Positions 1-9,354 of a DNA stretch of 27,118 bases are shown here, one piece after another. A program made the position numbers and the translations under genes. The DNA lies in the IMG/VR virus record IMGVR_UViG_3300017757_000110, positions 1-27,118 of that record. One strand, given 5' to 3'. Numbering within the stretch: position 1 is the stretch's first letter; every line of letters starts with the position of its first letter. Source of the stretch: a virus. The notes beneath the pieces are model-generated. The model was not told the origin of the DNA, searched no databases, and was given only the letters and a program-made list of their open reading frames with translations.

Positions 1-1545
1 ACCGTATAGCTCTGCATACTCAGGGCTTTGGGCAAACTGCTCAGCCATCTTCTCTAGTTCTTTAATAGAAGAACCGGAAGCATCTGCAGCACGGCGGATA
101 GCCGCTTCAGTCATAGGAGCACGATTAGCTCCATACTTATTTGCAGGGTCATTACGAATCTGAACTTGATCCCTAACTGCTTTAGCTGGACGAGACGTTG
201 ATGTCAGTGGCTGGTTCTCATGGAATTCAGCACCTTGGTAGTAATACGGTGTATCTCTAGGGGAACCACCATCAAGATCAACATTTAATTGATCCTTACC
301 AATCTCAGTAAACTGCTCTGATTGCTTAATAGTTCGACGCGAGAAATCCCTTTCAGATCCCCAATCCATTTTATTGTTAGCAGTATACTCTTGTTTGTAA
401 AATTCAACATCTTTATCGTCTAACTGAGACCAGCTCTTACGTGCATTAGGATCTTTAGAACCCTTATAGTTAGTCTTAAAATCATCAATGGTCATATCAT
501 CAGGGATAAAACCATTTTTTTTTAATGACTTAAACTGTTCACGTGTGTATTTTGCTTCAGCTTGTTCAGAAATAAACTGTTCTTTATTTTTATATTCAAG
601 ATCAGACGCCCTTTCAACAGCGGCCATAGGAGTTTTATCTGTCTCCTTAGCCATATTAGGGTCTTGCTTTTTAGCATTCTTTAGTGCTTTTTGCTTGTTA
701 GTACTAAGTGCTCTAGAGCTAGCTTTGACGCCATCAAGAGCAATGTTCATCAAACCACCAAGGCCAACACCTTCAAGAACGTTGTAGGCGGTCCGTTGGG
801 CAGGCGACATATCATCTGTAGTAGAGATAACACTTAATGCTGGTTTCCAAGCAGGAACAAGGTCACCTAATGATGCAGCCATATTTGCATCATGTGAATC
901 ACTATCCCAAGCATCTACAACAGCTCCAGTAATGGCACCATCTCTAAAGGTCTTACCTAAGTTCTTTGCTTTCTGAAGCCTCATAGCAGAAGCGGTTAGC
1001 GGACCAAACTGTGCAGCTTTCGCAGCTTTTTGTCCAAACATAAGGGCACGAGCACCTTTGATACCTGTACCAATCTTCCCAAAACCAATAAATCCAACAC
1101 CAATATCAGTAACCCCACGAAGTAATTTACCCCAACCAGTTCTTACAATTGGTTGCTCTTTAAACTTCCAATCAGACTTGAACTCATAAGGGTCTCCTTT
1201 TGTGGACTTCTGCCAATAAGCAGGATCAAAGACTTTACCAAGGTCAACAGTGTTATTCCAAGAATCCTGAAGTCCAGCTGTTATAGCATTCCTGGTTTCT
1301 TGTATATTTTCAGTAATACCAAAGTCTTTAGGATCATCAATTGTTTCCTGTGTAGGTTTTAATGAACCGTCGTCATTAACTTTAGATAAAGTCTTAGCAT
1401 TATCCTCGGTTTGTTGTTGTTGCTGTTGTTCAATCTGAGCATTACTGTTCTCAAGTCTATCTTGAGAAGCTTGATATGCTTTTTCTCTTCGCTCCCGTTC
1501 CTCTAGATCAGCAACCTGTTGTGAAGTTAAATTTTGTTCTTCCAT
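1..1545 (-). CDS. T7 gp16-like internal virion protein, 3' end cut by window edge
   Basis: The frame is open for 515 codons from an ATG at 1545 to base 1, with no stop, so the C-terminus lies outside the window. The protein begins MEEQNLTSQQ, has a Gln/Glu-rich N-terminus, then a glycine-rich hydrophobic stretch (about residues 130-160, GVTDIGVGFIGFGKIG) that could touch membrane, then charged helical sequence. The start overlaps the stop of the preceding gene as TAATG, which implies coupled translation. Position after the gp14-like and gp15-like genes, and the length, suggest the largest ejectable core protein, T7 gp16. I see no catalytic motif in this part; the lysozyme-like domain is in the neighbouring gene instead. 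A run of nine A's (residues KKN near 525-517) is read in frame. The gp16 assignment rests on position. Confidence 0.75.
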   Translation of the reverse strand, partial: MEEQNLTSQQVADLEERERREKAYQASQDRLENSNAQIEQQQQQQTEDNAKTLSKVNDDGSLKPTQETIDDPKDFGITENIQETRNAITAGLQDSWNNTVDLGKVFDPAYWQKSTKGDPYEFKSDWKFKEQPIVRTGWGKLLRGVTDIGVGFIGFGKIGTGIKGARALMFGQKAAKAAQFGPLTASAMRLQKAKNLGKTFRDGAITGAVVDAWDSDSHDANMAASLGDLVPAWKPALSVISTTDDMSPAQRTAYNVLEGVGLGGLMNIALDGVKASSRALSTNKQKALKNAKKQDPNMAKETDKTPMAAVERASDLEYKNKEQFISEQAEAKYTREQFKSLKKNGFIPDDMTIDDFKTNYKGSKDPNARKSWSQLDDKDVEFYKQEYTANNKMDWGSERDFSRRTIKQSEQFTEIGKDQLNVDLDGGSPRDTPYYYQGAEFHENQPLTSTSRPAKAVRDQVQIRNDPANKYGANRAPMTEAAIRRAADASGSSIKELEKMAEQFAQSPEYAELYG

Positions 1546-4343
1546 TATTTACCTAGTAGGTTCGGGTACAAGCGAACTGAATCAAAGTTCTTATAACGTG
1601 GATCTGATTTAATTTGTTCTAGTGCATTAATTTTATCTGCAGCAGAAACGTTTTGCAGTCCAATCCATTCTTGACCTAGGCCAATCAATGCATTTCCATC
1701 AGTTCTAAGTTGTTTACCAACACGACCCCATAGCAAATGGATTGCTAAAAGATCTTGTGTTGCTTCATCGTATTTTGTTGTTTTCGGATCAAGACCAACC
1801 TGGCTTACAACATTAGCCAGTGTTGAACGGATAATTTGATATCGACCAGTAGCATGTAGAACTCCATCATTTTGGAGATTCATAACTTCCTCTACTGTCA
1901 TCTCAAGTAATGGCTTTTGGAACTTCTTAGTACCAGTACTAGAACCATATGCTGTGTGACCACCGTCAGCACCGCCCGTGTTCAATGAATCATAACCATT
2001 ATGGATAGTGTCGTTAGAAGACTCCCTACTGGCAATTAGATCCAGCATAGGTTTATAAGCTGGGATACCAACAATTCCGTTTTTATAATTAGTGTTTACC
2101 AAACCACGAGATACACGACCTTCAGATTCCATGTGTGTAATCAAACGTCGAAACTCAGGATCAGTTGCATATTGAACTGCTTGATCCCTAGAAGCCTTAA
2201 TGGGTTTCAAACCATACACTTCAAGTTGACTGTTAATAACATCTAAAACACTACGATCTAAGTCTGTCACCGCTACATCTTTAACAGCTTGGGGGATAGA
2301 ACCACCATTCCTATAAGAAGTATGAAGCCGGGAAATAAGCGATTGCGAGTCATCAATTCTTCCAAATAATTCCTTTTTAGTAATTACATCATTATCTAAA
2401 TCATATTGCTTACCAAAAGACGACCTTAATTTTGATGTATCAGAATGCTGTGAAAATTGTGTACGCAACATTTTGAAACCAGGATTTACTGTATCCAGTG
2501 TTTTCCCGTCATCAAGTCGATTGGTGATGAAGTCGCCAGTGGGGTTATCAGAGTTCCGTCCGGCCTCGATTTCATCCGTAATTTCTTTAAAAGCTGCTGC
2601 GGCAGACTCGCTTGTAGAACCATAATCACGATTCATTATATTATCCTGAACCAGAAATCTATATTTTTGAACGGCTCGAAAATGTACTGTATTGAGCTCT
2701 CCTGTAGGAGCATCATAGGAAGTCATTCTTAATGATTCACCCAGTTCACCCTTAATATCTTTTTCATGAGCCTTCATCTGCTCAGAGCTAGCAGTCTCTT
2801 CATACATACCTGCTAATTGTTCATATCTCTGGCGGCTCTCAGGTGTCAATTGTTGATATGCTTTCATCTTTAGATCAGTACTAGTTAAAGTACGATCTCT
2901 CCATTTCTCTTCGAGGATTGCTTCGGCTTCAGCTACACCATATGTTTCATTAGTAGCATATGTTTTAAGCCAAGATGGTGGGGGCTTATTGTAAGTAGCT
3001 ATAAAAGTTGCTTCCCATTTTTGATACTGAGAAGGGCTATACCCACTGGTTCTAGCAGTTGCAGTAAACTGGGCTATTGCTTCTTGAGAACTGGCCTCAA
3101 GCCGTGCATTCGTCATCCTTTTAACATTTTCAGATTGGCTATGAATTTGCTCTCTTGCAGTGTTAAGGAATGCAATATGTTTGGTAGAACCTGTTTTACC
3201 CTTACCTCTAGAGAATGCATCTAAATAACTAACAGTTTTTCCATCCTTAAAAAGGGTTGCATTTTGTAAAGCGTTAAGTTCCTTTTCACCAAATTGACCA
3301 ATACTTATTAATTTGTTAACAGCTACATGTAAACGATCATAACCTAAAGCACCACCACCATAATGATCAAGAAGATTAGATAGATCAATATTACCTTCAC
3401 TTTCAATAATAGTAGTAGAAAGTAAATTTGTATCTTCTTCTACACGAGCAGCACGGTAAGCTGCTTGATCCTTAGCAGTAAATTCTGATTGTAGAGTTTC
3501 AGTAACTTGATTAACACCAGGCCAGAAATGCTCATGTGCAAATTCAGGACTAAGCTCAGAATAAGCTTGAGTGAATTCTGAACGCATTGAGGTTAGAACA
3601 GAATTAAATAGAACCCGATCAGGATCAGGGCTATTTATAACATCTTCTAGAGACATCATTTCACCCTGACCAACGTTATACTTTTTCTCCCTACGTTCAG
3701 GGTTATCAGTAAATGCTTTCCAATCAGACCCAGCTTTCAAAGCTTGGGCTTTTTGTGCTCCTACAAGTCTCCAACCACTAAGACCCTGTACACGCCGCAA
3801 AGCAGCAACGTCAACTCCCTTAGCTTCAAGACTGGTTAAGTACTCCTCTTCAGCAATACCTTCAGATTCAAGCTCCGCCATTTTTACACGGTACTCTTGA
3901 AGTTGTTGTGGATCTACACCAGTTTCATTATAGATATTAAAGCCAATGTTCTGTTGTTCCTTAGAACGACGTTCACCAAAGGCTTTAAGTTCAGCACCAG
4001 CTTTCTGTGAAAACTGCGCCATGTTCTGAAGCCTTTTCTCATAAGCTTCAGATTTTTTAGACTCCTTTTGAATTAACTGGTCGTAACGTTTACGTAGTGC
4101 AGTAGCATACGTGTTATCAAACTGCCGTTTAAGCTGAGAGTTACTCTCAACATTACGTTGTTCAGCTTCTTGTTTTCTATCGAGTGCATCAGCGTACTGA
4201 TTCCTGTTATTGATTTCCGCGCTATACGCTTCTCTCAATTTACCGATTCGTTTCTCCTCTTCCCGTAGGTAGGTGGATGCTGTATCAGGTAATGTAGCAG
4301 GGTTGAAGGCTATCCTTCTTGCACTACTTTTAAATTGAGCCAT
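1545..4343 (-). CDS. T7 gp15-like internal virion protein with C-terminal lysozyme-like domain
   Basis: A 932-residue protein, mostly charged alpha-helical and likely coiled-coil (about residues 25-130), as expected for an internal core protein ejected into the host. The last ~165 residues differ: LIASRESSND (Glu774), a Gly/Asn-rich segment, then ATGRYQI and ATQDLLAIHLL. This order resembles phage muramidase/lysozyme folds (lambda R/GH104-like), with Glu774 the likely catalytic acid. In T7 the peptidoglycan-cutting domain is at the N-terminus of gp16, so here it has moved to a different core protein. The domain probably opens the host wall locally during DNA entry. The gene starts 17 nt after the gp14-like gene and ends in a TAATG overlap with the gp16-like gene. 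The core-protein role is inferred from position and composition; the lysozyme call comes from motif spacing. Confidence 0.78.
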   Translation of the reverse strand: MAQFKSSARRIAFNPATLPDTASTYLREEEKRIGKLREAYSAEINNRNQYADALDRKQEAEQRNVESNSQLKRQFDNTYATALRKRYDQLIQKESKKSEAYEKRLQNMAQFSQKAGAELKAFGERRSKEQQNIGFNIYNETGVDPQQLQEYRVKMAELESEGIAEEEYLTSLEAKGVDVAALRRVQGLSGWRLVGAQKAQALKAGSDWKAFTDNPERREKKYNVGQGEMMSLEDVINSPDPDRVLFNSVLTSMRSEFTQAYSELSPEFAHEHFWPGVNQVTETLQSEFTAKDQAAYRAARVEEDTNLLSTTIIESEGNIDLSNLLDHYGGGALGYDRLHVAVNKLISIGQFGEKELNALQNATLFKDGKTVSYLDAFSRGKGKTGSTKHIAFLNTAREQIHSQSENVKRMTNARLEASSQEAIAQFTATARTSGYSPSQYQKWEATFIATYNKPPPSWLKTYATNETYGVAEAEAILEEKWRDRTLTSTDLKMKAYQQLTPESRQRYEQLAGMYEETASSEQMKAHEKDIKGELGESLRMTSYDAPTGELNTVHFRAVQKYRFLVQDNIMNRDYGSTSESAAAAFKEITDEIEAGRNSDNPTGDFITNRLDDGKTLDTVNPGFKMLRTQFSQHSDTSKLRSSFGKQYDLDNDVITKKELFGRIDDSQSLISRLHTSYRNGGSIPQAVKDVAVTDLDRSVLDVINSQLEVYGLKPIKASRDQAVQYATDPEFRRLITHMESEGRVSRGLVNTNYKNGIVGIPAYKPMLDLIASRESSNDTIHNGYDSLNTGGADGGHTAYGSSTGTKKFQKPLLEMTVEEVMNLQNDGVLHATGRYQIIRSTLANVVSQVGLDPKTTKYDEATQDLLAIHLLWGRVGKQLRTDGNALIGLGQEWIGLQNVSAADKINALEQIKSDPRYKNFDSVRLYPNLLGK

Positions 4344-4360: not shown

Positions 4361-6097
4361 TTAATAAGTTGCAGAAAGTTTTTCTTCCAGTTGTACAATT
4401 TTATCTTGAAGTTCCTGATGTCCTTTGACAAGTAGACCAATAAGGTCGTTAGTATCAATGGCAAGAGTACCCTTAAGATCATATGTAGCATCTGGCATAA
4501 CTTCCTTATATTCTTGTGCTACGAAACCATGATGCAGTCGATCTGGTTCAGCAGTGTATTCAGGTGTGTAATAGAAGCTAACAGGCTTCAGACTAGATAG
4601 TTTGGTTGAAGCATTCTCGATGGGTTCAACTGTATGCTTTGTTTTAATATCAGATACAAATGGTGCTGCAATAGATGCAACAGAAGACAGAGCACCAAGA
4701 CCGTCACTGACAGTATTCCAAACACTAGTCTTACCCATTGCACCCTTAATAGGTTTAGGTATTTTCCTAGGCTTGGTAGGATCAATATAGAATGTCTTCG
4801 GTAATTTTTCAGGTATAGGTACTGGAGGTGGCTCAGTCGGTTTAATCATCATCCTGCCGTAAGCTTGTAAGTCTGCTGCTTGAATATCATATTCAATCTT
4901 CTTATCAGAAGCAGCCTTTTCAGCTTTTGCACTTTCCCTAGTAGCTTTAATTTTAGCTCTATTATTAACATTCCTTTCTTGCTGGAACTTAAGGGATTTA
5001 TCTATTTTTTTATCAGAAAGTTTAAGCTGCTCTAAAGTAGTTGTCCTAGCCAATTCAAGTTTAGAAACTTTATTCGCAGTAGTTTTTTTCAAGTAGTCGC
5101 TGTCAGATTGGATTTTACTAACCTCAATCTTACTTAATGCTTTTGAAGTGCCCCTTGAAACTGCGCTTAAAGATTTTTTTGAAGCGACAGCACCTTTGTC
5201 GTATACAGCAGTACCCGATGTTTTTTTGTCTGAAAGGGTTTTTTCTTTTTTTAGAAAAACTAAACTGAGTGCTGTTGCAGCTTGCTTTCTGCCGTAATCA
5301 GCAAGTGCAGATTGTGTCAAAGCAGTGGCAGTGTTACCTTCAACACCTCTGGCAAGTATAGCTCCTTTAGTTCGAATTAATTCAGCTCTAGTATCAATTG
5401 AGTCAGCAACATTTTTTGCTGATGCTTCCTGAAACTTTAGTTCATTACCAGATAGTCCCCAACCTGTTGCGTCGGTAATTCTATCTTTATCTTTATCAAA
5501 CTGAGCTTGCTGAATTAAAAAAGCACTCTCTTCACCTTGATCTTTTCTATTTAAGATTGAGGTGTTTAATGCGTTTTGTGCAAGCTTTTTATCCCTTTCT
5601 AGTCCTACACCATGTAAGTCAAGCTGCGTATTTAATGTAACACTATCACGTTTGATTTGGTTAGCTTCTTTATCGTATTTAGCGTTTTTTTTAAATTCTC
5701 TATTAGCTATATTTTCGTCTGTTTTTTCAAAATCTGCAGCGAGAATAGATTCATCTAGTTTACGCTGTTCAGACTCTCTAGTTAATTCAGCAGCTGCATC
5801 ATTTAAATCAATTTGACTTGAGTAAATTGCTGATGACTTTATATATGCAGTACTTTCTGCATCATATTGTTGCTGTTGTAAATCCTTTTTATACTCATAA
5901 TCTTGCGCTATAGTTCTATCTTTGTAGTTTCTAGTCCTTGTTTCATTTTTTCTTGCTTCCTTGACCTTTTCTCTAGATTCTTCAAATCTATCCGTATTCG
6001 AGTCATTTTGATAATCTCTAAATTTCTTGTCGAACTTGTATTGCTTTTTAATTTGCTTATTCTGTCTCTTAATATTACTATTAGTTCCGCCTGACAT
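4361..6097 (-). CDS. Internal core protein (gp14 position) with C-terminal S74 chaperone/protease domain
   Basis: A 578-residue protein. Residues 1-430 are extremely rich in Lys, Asp, Ala and Gln and look like long coiled coil. A proline-rich hinge (PTEPPPVPIPEKLPK) follows. From residue 482 a recognisable S74 (intramolecular chaperone auto-processing) domain begins: SDIKTK, then SSLKPVSFYY, HHGFVAQE, DLIGLLVKGHQEL and a terminal coiled coil. The family's Ser-Lys dyad, spaced five residues apart, is present as Ser482 and Lys487, so self-cleavage before Ser482 is plausible. S74 domains normally cap trimeric tail spikes and fibres, so its place in the internal-core slot is notable. A strong ribosome site (GAGGAGG) lies 9 nt before the ATG, inside the previous gene, which it overlaps by 17 nt. 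It could instead be a fibre-type protein. Confidence 0.72.
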   Translation of the reverse strand: MSGGTNSNIKRQNKQIKKQYKFDKKFRDYQNDSNTDRFEESREKVKEARKNETRTRNYKDRTIAQDYEYKKDLQQQQYDAESTAYIKSSAIYSSQIDLNDAAAELTRESEQRKLDESILAADFEKTDENIANREFKKNAKYDKEANQIKRDSVTLNTQLDLHGVGLERDKKLAQNALNTSILNRKDQGEESAFLIQQAQFDKDKDRITDATGWGLSGNELKFQEASAKNVADSIDTRAELIRTKGAILARGVEGNTATALTQSALADYGRKQAATALSLVFLKKEKTLSDKKTSGTAVYDKGAVASKKSLSAVSRGTSKALSKIEVSKIQSDSDYLKKTTANKVSKLELARTTTLEQLKLSDKKIDKSLKFQQERNVNNRAKIKATRESAKAEKAASDKKIEYDIQAADLQAYGRMMIKPTEPPPVPIPEKLPKTFYIDPTKPRKIPKPIKGAMGKTSVWNTVSDGLGALSSVASIAAPFVSDIKTKHTVEPIENASTKLSSLKPVSFYYTPEYTAEPDRLHHGFVAQEYKEVMPDATYDLKGTLAIDTNDLIGLLVKGHQELQDKIVQLEEKLSATY

Positions 6098-6587
6098 CTT
6101 CTAAAACCTCCTCTAAATTAAAATCTGGTGGATCCATGCGATGGTAAAAAGCTGTAAAGACACGGATGTCGTTGTCTAACTCCTTCATTTTTTCGTATCC
6201 TTGTGTAAGTAAAGCAACCAACGGTAGTAATTCATCAATGTAAAGTCGCCAAGTTCTAGCATGTACTTTATCTATAAGGTCACCTTTTTCTTCTGCATGA
6301 TTAGCAGCTAACCAGGTGTTCCATATAGTTACATGTTGAGAGACAAGTGCTGCATAGTTAGCAGTAAAGAACTTGTTAGTATGAAGCCTGACAAAGAGGT
6401 TTTCCATACAAGTTAAATAAGACTTGTGGCTTATCTCTTTGTCATTATCAAAAACATCATCAACAACACGTGCAGCCTGAAAAATACAAGCAAGATAATC
6501 AAAAGCTTCATTATTATCTCCAGATGCACGTTGAATCATTTCTGCTGTTCTATTGTGAATTACTTCACGTTGGGTTGGTGTGGTCAT
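6081..6587 (-). CDS. Conserved-looking helical protein of unknown function (gp13 position)
   Basis: A 168-residue, mainly helical protein between tail tube B and the coiled-coil core protein, the slot T7 uses for internal protein gp13. I see no sequence similarity to gp13. Residues about 40-49 read ARVVDDVFDN, an acidic motif with a superficial likeness to the Asp-rich motif of isoprenyl synthases, but no second motif supports such an enzyme. The ATG overlaps the stop of the tail tube B gene as ATGA (4 nt), so translation is probably coupled. The C-terminal coding sequence carries the GAGGAGG ribosome site for the next gene. A virion or assembly role is inferred from context only. Confidence 0.7.
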   Translation of the reverse strand: MTTPTQREVIHNRTAEMIQRASGDNNEAFDYLACIFQAARVVDDVFDNDKEISHKSYLTCMENLFVRLHTNKFFTANYAALVSQHVTIWNTWLAANHAEEKGDLIDKVHARTWRLYIDELLPLVALLTQGYEKMKELDNDIRVFTAFYHRMDPPDFNLEEVLEDVRRN

Positions 6588-8695
6588 GCGCGTTTGTAAT
6601 ACCTAGGTGAATATTGTCCTTCCCATGACATGGAAAGAAGAGATACTGGATATGGACTACTAGACGATATTTGTATATCAAAACTTTCATTCCTTCGATG
6701 GACTGGTAGATCAAAGATCCGTTCGTCATCAACAGGAACAGAATCTAGTTTATAATAATTGGATTGAACTACTTCTCCGATTGTAGTAAAAGCAGGTTCA
6801 CTACGTTCACGAATAGCAAAACTAATAGCTCCAGTATTACCACAACTATATTTAATCCTATTAATAATTAATGATGCAGTTTTATCTACAACATTACCAT
6901 TGCGGAAATAAATTTTTGGTAACTCTATCGACATTGAATAGGTATATCCTACAAACAAAGAAGATAAGCTAAGGGATGAAAGATCTACTTTTTTTATATT
7001 AAAAGCCCAATAAGTAGTTCCACTAATAGTATGTTGTACAATTTCAGATGGTCGGAAAAATGCACCTGAACTAGAACCAGAAGAACTATCAGTTTGCATT
7101 ACAACCGCATTAGTTAAATCAGGATTACCTTGTGCATCTAAGATAGGCGAAAACGGTACAGCAACATAATTGTTATTAATACCACTAGTTTTAACTTGAT
7201 CAAATGCAGATGCTGATGACAGCATATCTACACAAGGGTTAACAACTACTAATCCATCTTCTGTTGTAAGTGTTGCTGTAGCAGCAGTTGGGCTTATAAA
7301 GCCCCGTAGCAATACCGAACGGCCACCTACCTTACATACCACCTGCACCTGATCTTGAGAGGTATCAAAGGCTTGTACAGGTCCTGGTAGCTGCCATTTA
7401 AACCACGATTTAAATACTACATTTTCACCTTCTTCGTAGGTACGAAAGAGATAAACATAATCTAAACTAGGTCCAGACAATGCAATAAATGAGTTTTGAG
7501 AACTACCTACAAGACGGTCTAATCCACTTGGAATCCATTCAGATACAATCTTACCTATGTCATTATAAAGTGAGTTACTCTGATCACCTTGTACGTTCAT
7601 AGAGAACACACGTGTATATGTTGGTGCAGATCCTGTAAAAACAACCTGTCTTCCAATCTGAACTGGGTCAATACCAACGTCCATTTCAAAGTTAGAGATT
7701 GTTCTGATAGTTGATTTTGATGGTGTAAGTACACCTTCATCTGCATACATCAAAAACTGCTCACTTCTACTAAAGAGAACTAGACCTTGCTGCTGTGGAA
7801 TGACTGCAAAGAGATCAACAGGTTTTTGACTAGTAATAAGTAAATCAATTACATCTGCTTCAGACAGAGTTAAAGCTGACTCTCTGAAAAAATTAAATAC
7901 TTCTCGTACTCTAGAAAGAATTATATTGTCACCACTTAAAAAACCAAGACGGTTATTATAAAAGAAAACTTCATTAATAGCACTTCCAACAAAACTTGGC
8001 AAAGGATTAGTATTATCATCACCAGCCAGTCTATTCACATACGATGGTGAACCTAAAAAAAAGGTACCAGTAACAGTATTGTAGTTAAGTTCTAATGGCA
8101 TGGTTGCAGGATCAAGTCCTAAAACAATTCCAGGCTTTACTATTTCTTGCCAAGCACCACCTTGGTAAATGACATAATAATCATCTTCAGCAATAAATGT
8201 ATTTGTTACATGGTAAGTATCATTAACGGTAGGACTAGTTGGCAACTCACCAGCAGCTGTTACAGAACCAGTAAGTGATCCAACTGTGCTACCTGTAGAA
8301 CCTGTTACTTTTGTCTTATTGCAAATGATCATCTGATCTTTACGTTGAGCAACAGAGAACTCATTACGTGTTCCGCTTAAGTAAGCATTTGTTGGATTAT
8401 TAACAGTAACTGTAGCACCAGTATTAAGATTCCATATAGTAACAGTATTACTTACAATAGCACCGAAGTATATTTCTGATGCAGAACGTTCAAACTTAAA
8501 CCAAAACGCATTGTTGTATGCAGCCTCTGTACCAAGATCAGCAACAAAGGAAACACCTGGACGTTTAGACATACCAAACGTCATGTCTGGATATACGTTT
8601 ACAGCATCACTAACATGTCCTAGTTCTTTATCTTGATCAGATTTACGTGATACTCCCTTTAAAAAATCAGGTGTAGATTGAGTAACAGCAGCCAT
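6584..8695 (-). CDS. Tail tubular protein B (T7 gp12-like)
   Basis: A 703-residue protein of the size and place of T7 gp12 (794 residues), the nozzle below the portal and tail tube A. The start MAAVTQSTPDFLKGVS with PDMTFGMSKRPGVSF is the typical opening of podoviral tail tube B proteins (short N-terminal stretch, then a R/K-RPG motif). The rest is beta-rich with many Ser, Thr, Asn and Val, as expected for a beta-propeller. The C-terminus (SLLSMSWEGQYSPRYYKRA) is also typical. The ATG shares one base with the preceding stop (TAATG). It acts in the virion as part of the tail channel that binds the host and guides DNA. Confidence 0.93.
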   Translation of the reverse strand: MAAVTQSTPDFLKGVSRKSDQDKELGHVSDAVNVYPDMTFGMSKRPGVSFVADLGTEAAYNNAFWFKFERSASEIYFGAIVSNTVTIWNLNTGATVTVNNPTNAYLSGTRNEFSVAQRKDQMIICNKTKVTGSTGSTVGSLTGSVTAAGELPTSPTVNDTYHVTNTFIAEDDYYVIYQGGAWQEIVKPGIVLGLDPATMPLELNYNTVTGTFFLGSPSYVNRLAGDDNTNPLPSFVGSAINEVFFYNNRLGFLSGDNIILSRVREVFNFFRESALTLSEADVIDLLITSQKPVDLFAVIPQQQGLVLFSRSEQFLMYADEGVLTPSKSTIRTISNFEMDVGIDPVQIGRQVVFTGSAPTYTRVFSMNVQGDQSNSLYNDIGKIVSEWIPSGLDRLVGSSQNSFIALSGPSLDYVYLFRTYEEGENVVFKSWFKWQLPGPVQAFDTSQDQVQVVCKVGGRSVLLRGFISPTAATATLTTEDGLVVVNPCVDMLSSASAFDQVKTSGINNNYVAVPFSPILDAQGNPDLTNAVVMQTDSSSGSSSGAFFRPSEIVQHTISGTTYWAFNIKKVDLSSLSLSSLFVGYTYSMSIELPKIYFRNGNVVDKTASLIINRIKYSCGNTGAISFAIRERSEPAFTTIGEVVQSNYYKLDSVPVDDERIFDLPVHRRNESFDIQISSSSPYPVSLLSMSWEGQYSPRYYKRA

Positions 8696-9354
8696 TAAAA
8701 TCTCCTTAGCATGTTAACAGGAGAGAACGGTTGATACGTACTGTCAGCCCTATCGAAACCTAAGAAGTTATAGTCACCTTGTGAAGTTTCATACTCCAAA
8801 GCTTGTGCTCTACAGAAACCTTCTCGCTCTTGGAGCATTTGATATTGAGTAGTATCACCAGTAATGCGGCTAGAAGTAATAGCTGCAGCCCTAGCAACAA
8901 CATAGTTTGCTATTGGTACTGGGATATCTTCCCAATTAAATTTTAGAATGACATCAACATAAGGATTGTAATACCACTTATCAGAGTGCTGAAAGCGATC
9001 ATATAAGTAGCGTTGGCCTGAAGCATCAGTTCGAATAACTGCATCGTGATTAACATTGGCTGGATCATTTGTCAAATCAATTTGAATATAATTAGATGAC
9101 ACCTCTAAGATGTTGTCAGAATTACGACTAAATTGAATATGATACTCACGATTAAAAGTCCATCCTTCAGCCTGGATATCCCTCGACGAAGACACCAGCG
9201 TATTCCAAGCAATCGCAACGTCCGGGTTGGATGAATCTAGAGTAGAGACAGGAGCTTGCCCAATGGATTGAAGAATCTCATTGACTGCAGCCCTCTGTAA
9301 TGGTGTAACAGGAGTCGTGGGATAATCACGATATCCAGGGAAAGAAGTAGTCAT
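8695..9354 (-). CDS. Tail tubular protein A (T7 gp11-like)
   Basis: A 219-residue protein, close to T7 gp11 (196 residues). It forms the ring between portal and nozzle. Family-like features are the N-terminal ALQRAAVNEIL-type helix (here PLQRAAVNEILQSIGQAPV), the segment DIQAEGWTFNRE, and a C-terminal helix with ARAAAITSSRITGD. Directly upstream is the strong terminator at 9366-9390, so this gene starts the post-capsid tail block, as in T7. The stop shares a base with the start of tail tube B. Confidence 0.93.
   Translation of the reverse strand: MTTSFPGYRDYPTTPVTPLQRAAVNEILQSIGQAPVSTLDSSNPDVAIAWNTLVSSSRDIQAEGWTFNREYHIQFSRNSDNILEVSSNYIQIDLTNDPANVNHDAVIRTDASGQRYLYDRFQHSDKWYYNPYVDVILKFNWEDIPVPIANYVVARAAAITSSRITGDTTQYQMLQEREGFCRAQALEYETSQGDYNFLGFDRADSTYQPFSPVNMLRRF

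Follow-up and report, generated by a model that had tools for sequence, protein, structure and literature searches.

S74 domains are usually carried by tail fibres and tail spikes. What, then, is the role of one at the C-terminus of a 578-aa protein encoded where T7-like phages have the gene for an internal virion protein? The gene occupies positions 4361..6097 on the minus strand of the window, by which we mean the whole stretch of DNA analysed, the 27,118 bases of IMG/VR virus record IMGVR_UViG_3300017757_000110, with the gene content (portal, capsid, tail tubes) of a T7-like cyanopodovirus. The initial annotation of this DNA had offered two answers: either the domain serves a protein of the internal core, or this is a fibre gene found where none is expected.

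The same annotation had assigned the C-terminal ~97 residues to the S74 family with a Ser482/Lys487 dyad, and this was confirmed by profile, by the Ser-Lys pair and by predicted fold. The Pfam profile Peptidase_S74 (PF13884) matched residues 482-537 over positions 1-56 of its 58 (E 1.6e-12; 48 bits, well above the cut-off of 22 bits), and this gene is the sole S74 match within the 27,118-base record. The domain, also designated the intramolecular chaperone autocleavage (ICA) domain, spans residues 482-578 (4364..4654, minus strand), including a predicted C-terminal helix at residues 549-577. Sequence comparison identifies Ser482 (4652..4654, minus strand) as the predicted nucleophile, which would become the new N-terminus after cleavage, and Lys487 (4637..4639, minus strand) as its predicted catalytic partner. 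The predicted structure of residues 465-578 (mean pLDDT 87) gave four top structural matches, all of them ICA domains: MyRF 7dc3 (Z 9.5), endoNF 3gw6 (7.2), 3gud (6.2) and the T5 fibre 4uw8 (6.2), with the next unrelated chain at Z 3.2. With the full-length model, the first three Foldseek rows were likewise the MyRF ICA domain, and most of the others, apart from 3gw6, were long-helix look-alikes. In the alignment to 7dc3, Lys487 lies opposite a Lys and Ser482 opposite an Ala. The MyRF dyad is described as S587/K592, equivalent to S911/K916 of endoNF, and since the protein crystallised was S587A (PMC8326128), we infer that these two residues of 7dc3 are the catalytic positions, the substituted S587 and K592.

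Thus the window domain shares with known phage ICA domains (endoNF, the T5 L-shaped fibre and GA-1 gp12) its C-terminal place, the profile, a Ser and Lys five residues apart, the predicted fold and the C-terminal helix. It differs in its context: the phage ICA domains covered in the account of PMC8326128 come after a triple beta-helix, in tailspikes, fibres and a neck appendage, whereas that of the window comes after a hydrophobic segment, in an ejection protein that is helical. MyRF offers a parallel here, in that the protein carrying its ICA domain is tethered to a membrane.

The gene neighbourhood is that of an ejection protein. Read along the minus strand, the genes encode tail tube A (gp11-like, 8695..9354; Pfam Tube, 6.5e-27), tail tube B or nozzle (gp12-like, 6584..8695; Pfam Phage_nozzle, 1.4e-138), a 168-aa gene from the ORF list in the gp13 position (6081..6587), the 578-aa gp14-S74 gene, whose start overlaps the end of the 168-aa gene, a gp15-like protein of 932 aa whose C-terminal region is lysozyme-like (1545..4343; ORF and homology) and the first 515 aa of a gp16-like protein recognised by homology, which runs off the record (1..1545). 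This is the order 11-12-13-14-15-16 of T7, and that of P-SSP7 as well, including the run from nozzle through 13, 14 and 15 to 16. A Shine-Dalgarno-like sequence, AGAGGAGG, stands 9 nt upstream of the gp14-S74 ATG. The initial annotation had placed the gene between tail tube B and the lysozyme-bearing core protein; this holds on the downstream side, where the gp15-like gene follows, but on the other side the gp13-position gene intervenes before tail tube B. The fibre genes of this phage lie past the end of the record.

A chimeric assembly was ruled out because an independent IMG/VR contig (L001, carried as L108 in the gp14-position set) encodes a full-length relative of the same architecture, 63% identical in the best segment over residues 1-577. 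A third contig of the lineage (L109), with 76% identity in tail tube B, ends inside gp14. A search with the window gp15 returned only an already-known relative contig. As side observations, the lysozyme-like region of the gp15-position protein lies at about residues 737-911 and its matches include proteins annotated as endolysins in Synechococcus phages whose genomes measure near 170 kb; the best match is the gp15-position protein of S-TIP37. The gp13-position protein has a good match only to phrog_21390 (unknown function, E 5e-12), and blastp gave no match between it and the proteins at the same place in P-SSP7 and Syn5.

The remainder of the 578-aa protein is related to cyanopodovirus gp14. 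The AlphaFold model of the full protein (mean pLDDT 79, pTM 0.40) consists of long helices at residues 7-208 and 301-414, followed by disorder and then the S74 domain. Together with the family alignment, it delimits a gp14 core at residues 7-414 (4856..6079, minus strand), with a low-confidence middle. Next comes a Pro-rich strap conserved in cyanopodovirus gp14 (residues 419-452; 4742..4843, minus strand), in which P420, P429 and P433 are nearly invariant in a 75-protein alignment, and then a hydrophobic Gly/Ala/Ser-rich segment of 20 residues (462-481; 4655..4714, minus strand; mean hydropathy +1.24) ending at the predicted cut site. The initial annotation had described a ~430-residue Lys/Asp-rich coiled coil; residues 1-430 consist of 13% Lys, 11% Ala, 8% Ser and 8% Asp, and what the model predicts is two long helices around a low-confidence middle, which do not prove a coiled coil.

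Residues 11-476 match phrog_20153 (E 6.6e-24), as do 73 of the 75 gp14-position cyanopodovirus proteins, the window included; phrog_15746, labelled internal virion protein, is matched by 42 of them. The gp14-position proteins of named cyanopodoviruses were matched in pieces by blastp, at residues 1-127, 88-298 and 341-480. In a tree of the gp14 core, the window protein and its relative L108 group with six long S74-less gp14s (an 8-row set, support 99/94). Only 13 of the 75 match Pfam T7_gp14 (PF24072), which the window protein fails to reach, and hhalign found no match between the 75-protein alignment and T7 gp14 alone, so the link to T7 rests on family and synteny; a search of solved structures with the profile of this alignment likewise returned none. 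The window protein thus resembles cyanopodovirus and T7 gp14 in gene order, long helices, phrog_20153 and conserved positions, and differs in being 578 aa with an S74 domain, where the S74-less majority (70 of 75) spans 200-593 aa, and in going unmatched by T7_gp14. Together, these comparisons support the identification of the gene as gp14, the first internal or ejection protein of a T7-like marine cyanopodovirus. Of the two original answers, then, the first is supported by the phrog, the blastp matches, the gene order and the gp14-core tree, the comparison with other cyanopodoviruses having assigned the non-S74 part to their gp14 family. The second is contradicted: helices and disorder, not a beta-structured stalk, precede the S74 domain in the model, the gene lies between the gp13 and gp15 positions, and a fibre in the wrong place was set aside on homology, synteny and predicted structure.

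We asked how often gp14 proteins carry this domain. The 75 gp14-position proteins comprise the window protein, 56 distinct complete ORFs from contigs, seven relatives of a second S74-bearing gp14 (L135) and 11 named records. The 56 came from 80 contigs found via tail tube B, from which 15 loci without a complete gene in place and 9 with duplicate proteins were dropped; L011 (DSL-LC07), where gp14 spans the start of the record, was also dropped from the set. A home-made S74 HMM found the window and L108, found L135 weakly (2.7e-4) and missed L141, and for this reason S74 was recounted with Pfam on the gp14-position alignment. Pfam S74 was found in five of the 75 (window, L108, L135, L141 and L189). 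Seven of the 75 rows (L189-L191, L193-L196) had been gathered with the S74-bearing L135 protein as query and cannot count as unbiased sampling. Among the 56 contig ORFs found via tail tube B the count was three, and among the 11 named records zero. When records were searched over their whole length, 7 of 12 named cyanopodoviruses had S74, with 8 matches in total, all of them outside the gp14-position gene and three in annotated tail fibres (Syn5, S-CBP3 and S-CBP1).

Additional cases came from a scan of viral contigs with the S74 domain of L135, which represents a short type with 64-76 residues after the Ser and without a C-terminal helix. The scan yielded 329 stretches encoding short-S74 relatives, from which 80 loci were taken, 78 of them under new locus ids (L215-L292). 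Five parent proteins among the 78 match the gp14-core HMM: L215 and L216, which are known contigs whose proteins were in the model, and the new L243, L261 and L277. All three new loci have tail tube B directly upstream of gp14-S74; on the downstream side, homologues of both gp15 and gp16 follow in L277 and one of gp16 in L243, and the L261 contig stops shortly past the gene. In total, gp14-S74 was found on 8 contigs across the tail-tube-B, L135 and short-S74 sets examined. Most short-S74 loci with a complete start (66 of 74) encode proteins below 450 aa, unlike long fibres. At about 235-4155 of L243, the nozzle gene aligns with S-RIP2 tail tube B as two segments, residues 1-213 and 213-981, with some 950 bases between them, as if carrying an insert.

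The combination also extends beyond the cyanopodoviruses. The L135-type S74 domain matches 59 phage records, of which 8 were picked for close study and not as a census: Pseudoalteromonas H6/1 gp17, Pseudomonas PAE2_13, Vibrio PVA1, Vibrio 199E37-1, Sulfitobacter NYA-2014a SUFP_020, EBPR podovirus 2 gp27, Rhizobium RHph_Y1_10 and Microcystis Mae-JY35. The C-terminus of all eight proteins shows the SD...K motif; the Pfam S74 match clears the cut-off in five, falls below it in two and is unlisted in PVA1. The DNA ejection family phrog_598 covers the N-terminal part of four, and phrog_4287, labelled DNA ejection protein, covers nearly all of the Mae-JY35 protein. In six of the eight, the genes that follow carry ejection, injection or peptidoglycan-hydrolase annotations; in PAE2 and Mae-JY35 they are unnamed. 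Since the H6/1 gp17 record reads "putative ejection protein; pfam13884", annotators had already seen S74 and ejection in combination. Although they share the C-terminal SD...K with the window protein, these ejection-type proteins carry the short S74 subtype, without the C-terminal helix, on different N-terminal families.

The closest S74 sequences to that of the window are instead found in a family of Ala/Gly-rich S74 proteins of ~220-240 aa (L028-L059), encoded in cyanophage-like contigs of up to 84 kb. These small proteins have the same hydrophobic lead-in, but the one tested (L002) matches the window protein in its S74 part only, and the gene neighbourhood differs. One such contig has a terminase with 54% identity to the terminase of cyanophage S-EIV1, the sole basis for a link to that phage, in whose record no S74 annotation was seen. 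A match of the small-S74 alignment profile to AopB (E 0.0055) was set aside as probably compositional.

The history of the fusion was traced on a tree of 78 gp14 cores from which the S74 domain had been cut away, 8 of the rows being S74-bearing. Presence of S74 required five changes, all forced by well-supported branches, and counting gains and losses alike; L243 is a long branch of unsure place. Shuffling the labels gave a mean of 7.8 changes, and only one of 500 shuffles was as low as five. These trees show a gp14-S74 fusion that arose more than once. In a tree of the S74 domains themselves, which has 104 columns only and a bootstrap that had not settled, the window domain falls inside the clade of small cyanophage S74 proteins (support 100/99) and the L135-type domain groups with the ejection-protein S74s of other podophages (99/87), which suggests that two S74 subtypes were recruited onto gp14. 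Presence and absence alternate even among close relatives: in the group 63-82% identical to L135, the domain is found in L135, L141 and L189 and missing from L190, L191, L128 and L193. The S74-bearing gp14s of this group share a different N-terminal stretch of ~55 residues from the S74-less ones, as if both gene ends had been swapped together.

Synonymous and nonsynonymous divergence was compared for the same domains. The S74 dN/dS is 0.10 for window-L001, 0.08 for L135-L189 and 0.22 for L135-L192, beside 0.20 for the gp14 core of window-L001, and the S74 codons thus appear to be under purifying selection. However, for window-L001 the dS of the S74 segment (4364-4654) is only 0.36 and that of the gp13-position gene (6081-6587) 0.21, with 2.1 in the gp14 core between them. 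The low S74 dS points to recombination as well as selection, the pattern suggesting patchy recombination, and the idea that S74 is better conserved than the gp14 core purely by selection is weakened. The catalytic pair is retained in the relatives examined. Of the 31 small-class rows with the site complete, which comprise 30 small proteins plus the gp14 of L001, 28 have Ser as nucleophile and 3 have Cys; in the short class it is Ser in 78 of 78 rows. Both motif searches presupposed a Lys at +5, and both counts retain duplicate contigs. The three exceptions, L031 (7737-8450), L054 (1300-1953) and L055 (7722-8375), read CDERTK, with Cys for the catalytic Ser and the Lys kept, and are possibly a Cys-Lys variant of the autoprotease; the S74 domains of L054 and L055 are identical.

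Where would such a domain cut? Measured from the conserved strap Pro (P433 in the window), the Ser lies 44-49 residues on in the five S74 proteins of the 75-protein alignment, 49 in the window. The tails of S74-less gp14s past the same Pro have a median of 56 residues (range 25-114, n=70), and those of the closest S74-less tree relatives of the window (557-593 aa) are 68-85 residues, longer than its 49. With S74 still attached, the tails would be 115-146 residues, a length reached by no S74-less gp14. In L277, the protein up to the Ser is 316 aa, compared with 314 in the S74-less gp14 of S-CBP1. The alignments thus show the predicted cut to fall near the natural ends of S74-less gp14s, usually just after a hydrophobic segment. 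Over the 20 residues before the Ser, mean hydropathy is +1.21 in the five gp14-S74 proteins and +1.25 in the small S74 group (n=27), a weaker +0.53 in the 8 podophage proteins and -0.58 in the fibre class (n=33; loci L060-L106, labelled by size and sequence). The contrast has a Mann-Whitney p of 3.7e-13, computed over related rows that are not independent. L277 is an exception at -1.10, not hydrophobic, and the short-S74 loci overall range from -1.39 to +1.52.

We consider it probable that the window gp14 is a pro-protein whose S74 domain trimerises, shields the C-terminus and cuts itself off before core assembly. The helical core would be an ordinary gp14; the C-terminal helix of S74 would bring three chains together, and the domain would hold the hydrophobic Gly/Ala-rich gp14 C-terminus in its cutting site. 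Cleavage before Ser482 would then yield a mature gp14 of 481 residues, ending about where S74-less gp14s end, and a 97-residue S74 fragment that should be absent from the virion. By analogy with T7, the mature protein would take its place in the core, between the portal and gp15, and would form the outer-membrane part of the ejection channel when the phage infects.

Precedents are described in the sources cited. ICA domains trimerise and then cleave, cleavage of MyRF needs the trimer, its C-terminal helix drives trimerisation, and phage S74 domains cut once the trimer is correctly folded (PMC8326128). T7 gp14 on its own is reported to be insoluble in water, is solubilised by gp15 and forms the outer-membrane pore (PMC8954989), and P22 gp7 is described as losing 20 N-terminal residues to a host protease before virion assembly (PMC4992974). 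It is because of this behaviour of ICA domains, the insolubility and pore formation of T7 gp14 and the trimming of P22 gp7 that a removable C-terminal chaperone over a membrane-active end is the best reading. Two qualifications concern the trimer. As T7 gp14 is given as eight copies per virion but six in the channel formed on ejection (PMC11784390), a trimeric gp14 precursor would have to rearrange; and the trimer step may not apply to the short S74 type, since this lacks the C-terminal helix. Also weighing against this reading are the lead-in of L277, which is not hydrophobic, the longer tails of the S74-less tree relatives of the window, the low S74 dS, the 70 of 75 gp14-position proteins that manage without the domain, the unsure place of L243 and the missing matches to T7_gp14 and T7 gp14.

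Other readings accept the gp14 identity and differ over the fate of the domain. That S74 is not removed before assembly and stays on the protein as a folded, trimeric part of the structure, a knob of the core or the tail channel that is at most lost at ejection, is unlikely: the symmetry of a trimer would fit a six-fold nozzle and a channel that, once ejected, has six copies of gp14, and the window domain keeps the helix that makes the ICA trimer, but the retained nucleophile in both the small and the short class and a cut near natural gp14 ends both speak against it. Very unlikely, in our estimation, is a delayed autocleavage, in which the S74 domain of packaged gp14 would cut when chains meet in the nozzle or the outer membrane and so time channel opening. 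The trimer requirement of ICA cleavage as given in PMC8326128 and the change in gp14 oligomeric state on ejection as given in PMC11784390 would suit such a timer; against it, phage S74 is described in the former as cutting upon correct trimer folding, and the folded domain would need to be packed in the core and to pass through the portal.

We give equally little credence to the domain being a neutral passenger, a by-product of recombination at a permissive 3' end with little function. Its presence and absence among close relatives and the low S74 synonymous divergence are what this would predict, but the tree requires five changes, with S74 always at the same end, the nucleophile is kept, dN/dS is about 0.1-0.2, and similar fusions occur in the ejection-type proteins of other podophages. 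A fibre or spike gene moved to an unexpected place is extremely improbable. The usual association of S74 with fibres, and the finding that the S74 matches of named records all lie outside the gp14-position gene, would fit such a move, but gp14 homology, T7 synteny, tree placement and helices in place of a beta-stalk in the model do not.

Both the S74 domain and the gp14 family are known, and some database records annotate S74 on ejection proteins; in the open-access literature searched, no description of S74 on ejection or internal virion proteins was found, and the repeated fusion is to that extent undescribed. Its recurrence suggests that certain injection proteins of viruses are synthesised as precursors that trim themselves. 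More tentatively, and at somewhat less than even chances, we propose that the membrane-active first ejection proteins of various podophages, the class of T7 gp14 and P22 gp7, are self-cleaving pro-proteins, in which a repeatedly recruited C-terminal S74 domain would shield the channel-forming end during synthesis and release it by autocleavage once chains associate. If so, the DNA-ejection machines of viruses would mature by a route not described so far, and ejection proteins could pass via a trimeric precursor despite the non-trimeric final core. It is poorly understood how ejection proteins, insoluble and able to pierce membranes, are protected and put together within the infected cell, and a fused, removable chaperone would provide a direct handle, in that one serine should decide precursor maturation. 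The findings would also add a protein predicted to lie inside the capsid to the range of S74, a domain usually discussed in connection with fibres and spikes, and they indicate that labelling every S74 gene "tail fibre" can mislabel such ejection genes. Among other S74 genes seen in the course of this work, that of Roseobacter phage CRP-3 encodes a 619-aa protein of unclear role, and that of Pelagibacter phage Bylgja lies two genes downstream of an annotated tail fibre.
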